From NCBI RefSeq assembly GCF_017875235.1, contig NZ_JAGGMI010000006.1, positions 248,001 through 312,000 on the forward strand: DNA of 64,000 nucleotides. The letters are read 5' to 3'. This stretch comes from Asticcacaulis solisilvae. Its GTDB lineage: Bacteria > Pseudomonadota > Alphaproteobacteria > Caulobacterales > Caulobacteraceae. The notes beneath the pieces were generated by a model that had not been told where the DNA came from, searched no databases, and worked only from the letters and a program-made list of their open reading frames with translations. Made by a program: the position numbers and the translations under genes. Position 1 is the stretch's first letter; every line of letters begins with the position of its first letter. This document shows positions 6,030 through 52,710 of this stretch, piece after piece.

Positions 6030-6902
6030 TCAGCTGAACAGCATGGACGACAGGCGACGACGACCGGCGCGAACCAGTTCCGAGCTGTTGCCGACAGCCG
6101 AGAAGATCTTGAACAGATAAGCGCGGGCAGCCTGGTCGTTCCATTCGGGATCGTACTTGACGATTTCCAGCAGGGTATCGATCGCGCCCTTCATGTCGCC
6201 TTGCGCTGCGAGTGCGCGGCCAAGATCGTAAAGGGCGTCAAAATCGCGATCGTTCTGTGCGACACGGGCGCGCAAACCGGCGATATCGGTCGGGGCGTCT
6301 TCGGCCAGTTCCAGCGCGGCCTTGAGGCCCAGAATGTCGGCATCGGTGGTGTGCGGCGGCGCCATATCAAGAAAGGCCTTGGCCTGTTCGGCCTGGCCGG
6401 CCTTCAGGTAAAGCTTCGCGATGCCGGCGATCGCTTTCAGATTCGTTTCATCCTGCTCGAGGATATAGCTATAGGCTTCGAGCGCGCTGGTGATGTCGCC
6501 GTCATCGGCCGATTGCTGCGCCAGGGCCAGGGTTTCCTCGACGGTCGGGCCGCCGTCTCCAACACCCAGCTTTTCGATGAAGGCGCGCAGTTCGGTTTCC
6601 GACTTGGCGCCCATGAAGCCGTCGACCGGACGGCCCCCGACAAAGGCATAGACGGTGGGGATCGACTGGACGCGTAATTGTCCGGCGACGCCAGGGTTCT
6701 TGTCGACATCGATCTTGACCAGCTTGACCTTGCCCTTGGCTTCGGAGACGACCTTTTCGATCGCAGGACCCAACTGGCGGCACGGCCCGCACCACGTCGC
6801 CCAGAAATCGACGATGACCGGTGTGGTCATCGATGCTTCGATGACGTCCTGCATGAAGGTCTGGTCGGTGCCGTCGATAATGTTCGGGTCTGCGGAAGCC
6901 AT
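6030..6902 (-). CDS. cnoX: Thioredoxin-TPR chaperedoxin CnoX (YbbN)
   Basis: This 290-residue protein has an N-terminal thioredoxin domain (residues about 10-110) with the intact active site WCGPC near residue 37. A TPR-type helical C-terminal half follows ([29 protein letters not shown] and later repeats). CnoX holds unfolding clients under oxidative stress and hands them to GroEL. The E. coli protein has lost one active-site cysteine, whereas this one keeps CXXC, as described for Caulobacter, so it can probably also act as a reductant. The Trm112-like gene follows directly. Confidence 0.92.
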
Positions 6903-6988: not shown

Positions 6989-7477
6989 GTCCACAGATTG
7001 CACAGATGCACACAGATTATTCGAGCGCGTGACATCCTAGAGCTAAGCAACGAAACGGCGGTATTCTAGGCTAGCTGCTCCGAAATTTATCAGCAAGGCC
7101 TTCTTTAAACCGGAGGCTTTCAAGTAATTCAGGGTTTGCGCTTCGTGGTCACCCGTTAGGCGCGTCAGCGCTTTTAACTCGACGAGGACGGCTTCGAAGC
7201 AAACCAAGTCAGCACGGTACTGACACGATAACACCATGCCCTTGTACGATATCGGAAATGCGCATTCGCGCAGAAAAGGAACGTTCAGCTGAGAAAGTTC
7301 CAGTACCATGGCTTCATGATAAACGGCTTCAAGGAAGCCGTGGCCCAATGTCCGATGAACCTCCATCGCAGCCCCAATGATAGCGTATGTTTGTGCGTCT
7401 TTCTGGTTGGTCACCGTTTCCCTCCGAAGGGCGCAACGAACACGAATAATCTGTGTGCATCTGTGAAATCTGTGGAC
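6989..7477. mobile_element. 489-bp inverted-repeat element carrying a GxxExxY gene
   Basis: A 35-base sequence starting GTCCACAGATTGCACAG at 6989-7023 recurs inverted at 7443-7477 with one mismatch (34 of 35). Between the arms lies one GTG-started GxxExxY gene that almost fills the interval. The right arm ends six bases from the stop codon of the ProX-like gene, and the left arm lies beyond the 5' end of cnoX. No target-site duplication is obvious. The same arm sequence (17 bases) bounds a gene-less interval at 52430-52710. I infer a small mobilisable unit; no transposase is encoded. Confidence 0.6.
7043..7414 (-). CDS. GxxExxY protein (PD-(D/E)XK-like fold)
   Basis: A 123-residue member of the GxxExxY family (TIGR04256-type). 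The name-giving motif is GFLEAVY at about residues 26-32. RADLVCFEAVLVELKAL (about 68-84) supplies an Asp...Glu-x-Lys pattern like PD-(D/E)XK nucleases. The end ALLINFGAASLEYRRF is typical. The start is GTG 7414, with GGAGG six bases upstream. Function is unknown; the residues suggest a nuclease-like core. It has somewhat lower GC than its neighbours and lies inside a near-perfect inverted repeat, both consistent with mobility. Confidence 0.85.
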   Translation of the reverse strand: MTNQKDAQTYAIIGAAMEVHRTLGHGFLEAVYHEAMVLELSQLNVPFLRECAFPISYKGMVLSCQYRADLVCFEAVLVELKALTRLTGDHEAQTLNYLKASGLKKALLINFGAASLEYRRFVA

Positions 7478-7482
7478 CCAAA

Positions 7483-7992
7483 TTACGCGATGTCCGTAAA
7501 ATCGATCACCACCAGTTCGCGCTCCAACGAAGCTAGGAATGCCCGAAAGTCCGACTGTGTGAGGGCCGTCGTCGCTGTATTGGTCAGCGGATGGAAGTTG
7601 ACGATTGCGGCCTCAGCCAGGGTCTTGTCGAGCAGGAATTTTACCTTGTGCTCAGGATCGTTGATCAAGGCCAGGGCTGTTACCGATCCGGGCGTGACAC
7701 CCAAAGCCGCATAAAGGCGTTCCGGTGAGCCGAACGACAGGCGGCCGGAACCGATCAGTTTGGGAAGTGCTTTTAAATTAATCTGCGCCTTCTGCTCGGC
7801 CGAGATCAGCCACAGCTGGCCTTTGTCGTCCTTCAGGAACAGGTTCTTGGTGTGAGCGCCGGGCAATTGATCCTTGATGCCCTCGCCTTCACCAACGCGA
7901 AAGACCGCTTCATGGTGCAGGGTGCTTGTTTTCAGGCCCAAATCGTCCAAGGTTGCGAGCAGTTTTTCAGGCGTGTAAAGCGGTTCGGTCAT
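7483..7992 (-). CDS. ProX/YbaK-type aminoacyl-tRNA deacylase
   Basis: A 169-residue protein of the prolyl-tRNA synthetase associated domain family (ProX/PrdX). Members hydrolyse mischarged tRNA, usually Ala-tRNA(Pro), in trans. Visible hallmarks are HHEAVFRVGEGEGIKDQLPGAHTKNLFLKDDKGQLWLIS with the catalytic-region KNLFLKD lysine, and LGVTPGSVTALALINDPEHKVKFLLD. An in-frame TTG extends the frame upstream, but MTEPLYTPEKLL at ATG 7992 is the usual N-terminus. The GxxExxY element begins six bases past its stop. Confidence 0.9.
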   Translation of the reverse strand: MTEPLYTPEKLLATLDDLGLKTSTLHHEAVFRVGEGEGIKDQLPGAHTKNLFLKDDKGQLWLISAEQKAQINLKALPKLIGSGRLSFGSPERLYAALGVTPGSVTALALINDPEHKVKFLLDKTLAEAAIVNFHPLTNTATTALTQSDFRAFLASLERELVVIDFTDIA

Positions 7993-8073
7993 AAGACCGC
8001 AAACTGGCCGCAATCATCCGCCAGATCAAGCGTTTGTCCCGCCACTCGGCTGGAAAATTGGAGCAGGTTGAAG

Positions 8074-52429: not shown

Positions 52430-52710
52430 GTCCACAGATTGCACAGATTAGCACGGATGATCCGTGCAGGTGGGCGGCCTGTGTCTTATCAAATCTGATC
52501 CCGACGGCGCAAAGCGCCTTCATTTCATTAAAGTATCGCGCGCCTCAGCTTCCCCACGCACGGATCAGCTGTGCTAGAGCGATATGGCGAAAAGTGCCAA
52601 GATGCGTTTTTTGGGGTTTTCGCCTTAAATATCGCGACAAAACAAAAACTTAGATCGGTATGATGTTTCCACTTAAAATCATACCGATCTAAGCTGTGCA
52701 ATCTGTGGAC
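52430..52710. mobile_element. Gene-less counterpart of the GxxExxY element
   Basis: GTCCACAGATTGCACAG at 52430-52446 recurs inverted at 52694-52710 (17 of 17). It is the outer part of the arm found at 6989 and 7443. No GxxExxY reading frame lies inside; a complete family-2 repeat occupies 52575-52693 and abuts the right arm. A GCACGGATGATCCGTGC hairpin follows the left arm. This 316-bp ptsN-hsp20 gap holds nothing else recognisable. Confidence 0.55.
52575..52693. repeat. Family-2 palindromic repeat, copy R2c
   Basis: This is an inverted and nearly identical copy of 30770-30884, with only a few substitutions and small indels over about 113 bp. It is nested inside the GTCCACAGATT inverted-repeat pair. 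Confidence 0.8.

Follow-up and report, generated by a model that had tools for sequence, protein, structure and literature searches.

Repeat families and their enzymes

Among the described systems, the REPIN/REP sequences and their RAYT (TnpA-REP) enzymes come closest to the locus analysed here. These repeats are portrayed as extragenic inverted repeats that form a hairpin and are present in many copies without a gene, and each repeat class has a dedicated small enzyme, with which it co-evolves (PMC3116915, PMC8266576). The GxxExxY elements described below resemble this arrangement in that their arms are extragenic inverted hairpin doublets with many copies, and in that the GxxExxY protein and the arm word covary across phyla. 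In contrast to the RAYTs, which are HUH enzymes, the GxxExxY protein is a predicted PD-(D/E)XK enzyme; moreover, the arms consist of tandem 7-nt words with variable bases, and the gene resides inside one element. Since no HUH domain was found, membership in the REPtrons fails on the enzyme, and the GxxExxY system is better said to work like a REPtron than to be one.

Free-standing homing endonucleases represent another arrangement, where a nuclease gene is located within a small unit. The replacement of resident GxxExxY elements is reminiscent of homing, yet the putative target of the GxxExxY protein is its own arm word, which occurs in many copies per genome.

The DNA considered here is a stretch of 64,000 nucleotides from Asticcacaulis solisilvae (hereafter the window; assembly GCF_017875235.1, contig NZ_JAGGMI010000006.1, positions 248,001 to 312,000). 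It harbours a small unit composed of a GxxExxY gene and two inverted arms. Probably, this unit belongs to a REPIN-like family of extragenic palindromes, of which it is a member that carries the gene, with the GxxExxY nuclease as dedicated enzyme. This reading draws on the association of arms and gene, the covariation of word and protein, the dispersed gene-less copies and their extragenic location at 3' ends, and on differences between orthologous sites in the presence, orientation and arms of elements. It provides a testable role for a widespread family of small bacterial proteins of unknown function, links this family to intergenic palindromes that are present in large numbers and, if true, shows that the REPIN/RAYT lifestyle has been arrived at a second time with an unrelated enzyme. 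The open-access literature searched, which leaves aside preprints and most subscription papers, yielded no description of the GxxExxY arm system. There, GxxExxY is named in passing only, a GxxExxY protein is given for the algal virus CpV-BQ1 (Table 1 of PMC12085832), and the arm strings are absent save for one string in an unrelated paper on fish eDNA.

The element and its neighbourhood

The whole element, arm plus GxxExxY gene plus arm, covers 489 bp (6989–7477, without strand). Its left arm, GTCCACAGATTGCACAGATGCACACAGATTATTCG (6989–7023, plus strand), is made of three CACAGAT units, which begin at 6992, 7001 and 7011 and are thus 9 and 10 nt apart, and the right arm (7443–7477, minus strand) is an inverted copy with three units, the plus-strand words of which start from 7448, 7458 and 7467. 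The initial annotation had described a near-perfect inverted repeat around a single gene, and both points hold: the arms are identical at 34 of 35 positions, a match at 90% identity reaches 42 nt (6989–7030 and 7436–7477), and between them lies an open reading frame for 123 residues (7043–7414, minus strand) with its own GTG start and the Shine-Dalgarno sequence GGAGGG immediately 5' of it. Reading frame and profile matches identify this gene as GxxExxY/PDDEXK_3. According to the list of open reading frames and the Pfam profiles, it is the sole gene between the arms, and no transposase is found there.

Two genes on the minus strand flank the element and lie outside of it, one coding for a CnoX-like protein with thioredoxin and TPR domains (6030–6902), the other for a ProX/YbaK-like protein with an aminoacyl-tRNA editing domain (7483–8013). 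The earlier labels cnoX and proX are consistent with these domain matches; the distance between the right arm and the neighbouring stop codon (7483–7485), previously given as six bases, is actually five.

The sequence GTCCACAGATT occurs in 13 exact copies in the genome of origin (G000; 5.0 Mb, 34 contigs), while the reversed word has none. Several of these copies are arranged as inverted pairs that enclose no GxxExxY gene, and one such pair makes up a second element in the window (52430–52710, without strand), with the ends GTCCACAGATTGCACAG ... CTGTGCAATCTGTGGAC. The genome contains two PF13366 matches only, neither of them in this second element. An inner palindrome like GACAGCGCAAAGCGCTGTC is common to the copies on contigs C4, C6 and C8 and, more loosely, on C2. 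The second GxxExxY gene of the genome (L010, contig C20) has no detectable arms (score 12, unrelated word). As a separate observation, the element at 52430–52710 belongs to the CACAGAT family, and its middle also contains an inverted GATCGGTATGAT segment.

The GxxExxY protein

Membership of the window protein in the GxxExxY family, as first assigned, is upheld by the profiles TIGR04256 GxxExxY (E 8e-42, 142 bits; curated cut-off 35) and PF13366 PDDEXK_3 (E 5e-39, 134 bits; curated cut-off 22). At E≤0.001, only PDDEXK_3 (Pfam) and GxxExxY (NCBIfam) were detected, and no HUH/Y1 transposase domain. In an alignment of 58 proteins, comprising the window protein and those of 57 of the 80 cross-phylum loci introduced below (L083, L104 and L134 were excluded for stop codons, others for brevity), the residues G24, G26, E29, Y32, D69, E79, K81, Q93 and F111 are invariant, and Y97 is conserved in at least 90% of the sequences.

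An AlphaFold2 model of the window protein (pLDDT 95, pTM 0.87) places the first helix at H7–23. With this model as query, PDB matches at E≤0.001 were confined to four chains of 4ic1 (E 1.4e-4; TM 0.61, normalised by query length). Among the weaker structural matches were alkaline, RecE and lambda exonucleases, AddAB and MGME1, and a search by sequence retrieved no PDB chain at E≤10. The entry 4ic1 is SSO0001, a Cas4. The motif of RecB/Cas4-like PD-(D/E)XK nucleases consists of D, E-x-K and Q-xxx-Y on a restriction-endonuclease fold, and Cas4 proper is characterized by four conserved iron-sulphur cysteines. The window protein shares with the Cas4/RecB-like nucleases both the modelled fold and the conserved catalytic residues D, E-x-K and Q-xxx-Y. 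It differs from Cas4 in its small size (123 residues), in the lack of a conserved four-cysteine set and in being flanked by its own repeats; it does not qualify as a Cas4 proper, as none of the alignment columns that are fully or almost fully conserved in the 58 sequences holds a cysteine. GxxExxY models as a minimal Cas4/RecB-like PD-(D/E)XK nuclease.

The gene was also considered as a passenger of phages or plasmids, and this was rejected: tblastn with the window protein as query (E≤1e-5), a search which more distant members could escape, matched 8 plasmid records out of 72,556 and none of the 50,697 phage records.

Arms around GxxExxY genes in other genomes

The initial annotation had asked for conserved inverted arms at homologues, and members of many phyla do carry them. 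Cross-phylum loci were chosen by the protein alone: at least 559 matches were confirmed in species genomes, and the best 80, those most similar to the window protein, were used. Of these, 7 have short flanks, leaving 73 with full flanks. At each locus, inverted repeats were sought in the 300 bp on either side, the highest-scoring one was taken, and arms were called at an IR score of at least 14; the window element scores 32. This threshold is reached by 53 of the 73 full-flank loci from the best 80, as opposed to none of 968 shifted positions tested in these loci, where scores did not exceed 13, and 39 of 716 pairings of the left flank of one locus with the right flank of another. In the host family Caulobacteraceae, arms are present at 52 of 63 full-flank GxxExxY loci, including the window's own. 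The family set of 64 loci, of which L038 with its short flank falls outside the 63, consists of the two loci of the window genome, 30 of the best-scoring ones, further copies from the window genus and copies from three copy-rich genomes. Among the loci examined, armed ones span 13 named phyla. These figures confirm that the association of gene and arms is general and not due to chance.

Scores below 14 were obtained for 20 of the 73 cross-phylum and 11 of the 63 family loci, and for 36 of 144 GxxExxY loci overall. Some of these loci have short arms (L084, score 12), others have none (L010), and orthologs may diverge, as illustrated by L267 with a score of 8 and L277 with a score of 36. The left and right arms of a locus match each other with a mean score of 25.3, compared to 12.8 against same-word arms of other loci. 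The own arm pair is the best one in 61 of 89 loci; because all of these had been preselected for own arms scoring 14 or more, the comparison is biased in favour of the own pair.

The arm word and its covariation with the protein

The arms are built from tandem short words, mostly of the form C[AG]C-N-[AG]-A-N, with a spacing by eye of 8–10 nt. The word C[AG]CN[AG]A was found in the left arm of 95 of the 108 loci with an IR score of at least 14. For word statistics, 93 typed loci were used (108 minus 14 without a typable word and minus L083, which has a stop codon). The most frequent endings are AGAT (28), GGAA (12), GAAG (9), AGAG (8), GAAC (7) and GAAA (6), followed by GAAT, GGAG and CAAG (5 each), AAAG (4) and four singletons. 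AGAT-type words are present in ten named phyla, and different words can occur at genes within a single genome (G085, G171). Arms of fixed sequence, with GTCCACAGATT everywhere, were ruled out by these differences in word from one locus to another.

The distances between words are correlated with those between proteins, both among the 93 loci (Mantel r 0.50) and among the 45 cross-phylum loci (r 0.49; 0 of 2000 permutations as high). In 29 of these 45 loci the word is shared with the locus of the nearest protein, compared to a mean of 10 and a maximum of 20 loci upon shuffling, and a tree built without alignment column 9 requires 32 word changes versus 60.8 for shuffled words. Most of the xxAG words are not individually clustered on the protein tree. 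At the level of sequence comparison, the arm word follows the GxxExxY protein across phyla.

The best residue predictors of the variable bases include positions 9, 13, 16/17 and 20 in the first helix, along with 27, 33, 68, 96 and 112; these predictors are confounded with phylogeny and serve as a lead. Likewise, threonine at residue 9 coincides with G at word base 5 in all 34 threonine cases among 70 representatives, which is a lead only, because just four well-supported pairs are independent. Natural GxxExxY proteins that go with different words (CACAGAT, CACGAAA, CACGAAC, CACGGAA, CACAGAG and others) constitute a ready panel to learn how a minimal Cas4-like nuclease reads DNA.

The recurrence of armed genes also bears on the view that the arms stem from a DDE transposon, lost or distant, as its terminal repeats, with GxxExxY being just cargo. 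The gene-less elements do resemble insertion-sequence MITEs, being short and non-autonomous with inverted ends. However, this cargo is found with arms in 13 named phyla, the word of the arms varies together with the cargo, the window element holds only GxxExxY and no transposase between its arms, and no clear target duplication was seen. We regard a MITE origin as very improbable.

Gene-less copies

Hairpin copies without a gene measure 77–578 bp and are dispersed in the genomes. A three-unit CACAGAT pattern (up to 3 mismatches) has matches in 12 of 25 genus genomes, with up to 30 per genome and one weak match only in some, while the reversed pattern has none in all 25; the arms of G089 and G029 are spaced differently and escape this pattern. 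A more general three-word pattern has 1770 matches (861 + 909) in 25 genomes, versus 18 (8 + 10) for the reversed pattern; these genomes were selected for an armed gene locus, the arms of which are included in the counts. Numbers per genome vary from 1 to 507, with Herpetosiphon (507) and an Isosphaeraceae bacterium (205) at the upper end and five genomes with at most 4.

Short repeated words that form inverted pairs at 3' ends call to mind DNA-uptake or other host recognition words such as DUS/USS, which also occur as inverted pairs at terminators, and the gene might then be a linked processing nuclease. The different words at loci of one genome (G085, G171) and the range of 1 to 507 matches per genome speak against this explanation, and we deem it the least credible of those considered here.

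Across 249 family genomes, xxAG-type arms were detected in 25 of 75 PF13366-positive and 9 of 174 PF13366-negative genomes (p 2e-8), or in 24 versus 7 when three genomes with simple-repeat-like matches are set aside. The genomes with arms and without a PF13366 match are G004, G019, G053, G059, G081, G148, G186, G219 and G232. G145 contains 26 arms of the CACAGAT type without any match to PF13366, G114 and G137 have kept arms and contain the gene only as split partial matches, and G129 harbours CACAGAT-type arms without a CACAGAT-type gene. The commonest gene-less arm equals or nearly equals the arms of the gene in four of six compared genomes with an intact CACAGAT-type gene (G000, G089, G085 and G052, not G014 and G099), and a strict matching of gene and gene-less subfamilies within one genome applies to these four only; the loci from G085, G052 and G129 were in part chosen by similarity to one subfamily.

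The location of the gene-less copies was analysed for 48 elements from five related genomes and the window genome, with orthologs counted separately and with mechanically called, not annotated, open reading frames. Only 2 of the 48 lie inside a reading frame of at least 150 residues, compared to 617 of 843 random placements. At least one 3' end adjoins 45 of the 48 elements, 25 are located between two 3' ends and none between two 5' ends. Three elements that were folded form long hairpins (z −10.6 to −12.3).

These features are compatible with two further explanations. The arms might pair in RNA around the GxxExxY message and control it, the protein binding its own transcript, and the dispersed copies would belong to other regulated or terminated transcripts. 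The tight bracketing of the gene by arms that can pair and the preference of gene-less copies for 3' ends of reading frames fit such a role; against it, the gene-less copies vary between relatives like DNA that is gained, lost or replaced, the closest folds are those of DNA nucleases, and 10 loci have 0 Rfam matches at gathering score, a result on which a known RNA family was rejected as well. We regard control at the RNA level as very improbable.

Alternatively, GxxExxY would not move the arms, which would be terminator-like 3'-end palindromes that spread and are homogenised through slippage and template switching during replication; as a nuclease of the host, GxxExxY would trim or police the hairpins. 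The 3'-end location, the strong hairpins and the genomes with arms but without an intact gene agree with this account, which nevertheless fails to explain the position of the gene inside arms at 53 of the 73 loci selected on the protein alone, and the covariation of word and protein across phyla. We judge it unlikely.

A model for the spread of GxxExxY elements

According to the preferred reading as a REPIN-like family with a dedicated GxxExxY nuclease, the two arms, each with three tandem 7-nt words in the window element, can fold together into one hairpin. The GxxExxY protein would most likely recognise the arm word and most likely cut or nick the DNA at the arms. Repair off another copy may then spread elements to extragenic 3'-end sites, replace a resident element by one of another subfamily, or cause elements to be inverted, homogenised or deleted. 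We infer that GxxExxY would bind and cleave its arms, that copying would take place in trans and that movement would depend on this enzyme. The chief difficulties for this model are the GxxExxY genes with scores under the arm threshold, the genomes that are rich in arms but have no intact gene, and the lack of a clear target duplication at the sites compared.

Taken together, GxxExxY units and gene-less arms look like small mobile DNA of a kind that has been overlooked and that is equipped with its own enzyme. A bolder proposition, to which we give somewhat less than an even chance, is that mobile DNA based on GxxExxY nucleases forms a class apart in bacteria: an enzyme of ~125 residues with a PD-(D/E)XK fold would read a repeated word in each hairpin arm, word and recognition helix would coevolve as a code, and the enzyme would copy its elements into 3'-end intergenic sites and over residents in at least 13 phyla, with no transposase involved.

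Comparison of orthologous sites

Elements differ between relatives in their presence or absence at orthologous sites, in their orientation and in their arms. The initial annotation had proposed a comparison of the proX-cnoX junction. The spacer is readable in 16 of 24 genus relatives, and in 12 of these 16 it is short and the element absent; a clear target duplication was not seen. In G129 the junction contains other sequence, and in G137 and G145 (L059, L060) another reading frame, presumably for a YdcF/ElyC-type protein, together with an apparent remnant of a CACGAAA-type arm. In G124 the junction has a GxxExxY gene, by eye without bracketing arms, beside a gene-less CACAGAT element. It appears as if the proX-cnoX junction attracts such elements repeatedly. 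The earlier interpretation as a small mobile unit is favoured by armed homologues, empty sites and dispersed gene-less copies, whereas the apparently armless gene of G124 at the same junction, the loci with scores below the arm threshold and the divergent orthologs L267 and L277 speak against it.

At the L207 site, G145 and G014 carry CACAGAT-type elements with different spacers, G149 (L306) instead has a CACGGAT-type element with inner hairpins, and none of the element types is found in G137, G000, G114 and G119. As an element is present in G014 too, the difference between G137 and G145 at this site looks like a loss in the former. Within this close pair (~95%) no clear target duplication was detected, and other differing sites are replaced by unrelated sequence. 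AAGGA repeats flank one solo arm (L212 versus L257), with none clear at other sites.

A set of 20 orthologous element pairs, which are not independent of each other, was compared. In 2 of the 8 pairs with alignable interiors (score of at least 30), the interior is inverted between unmoved flanks. The arms of 5 of the 20 pairs (3 distinct sites) are 0.93–1.0 identical within a locus and 0.70–0.79 between orthologs; those of the remaining pairs agree at 0.83 or higher. At L314, both arms depart alike from their subfamily by one substitution and one missing base. Template switching during replication at hairpins could by itself give rise to inversion and to arm homogenisation, and both phenomena, as well as the array of ~18 units at L200, are in line with the slippage and host-nuclease account outlined above. 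Synteny between L253 and L269 ends at the tip of the arm of a GxxExxY element. At the site shared by L270, L278, L275 and L272, the gene and GGAA-type arms have been kept over deep divergence, so some units are long-lived.

Finally, two elements show unusual repeat structures. One arm of L200 (1357–1586, G145:C9) has expanded into an array in which the unit CACAGATTA is repeated ~18 times in tandem; in G137, rearrangements have affected the sequences flanking this site. In L226 (G137), a different repeat of ~105 bp is inserted within a CACAGAT element at ~1421–1525, and this repeat has many matches in G145, G114, G014 and G085.
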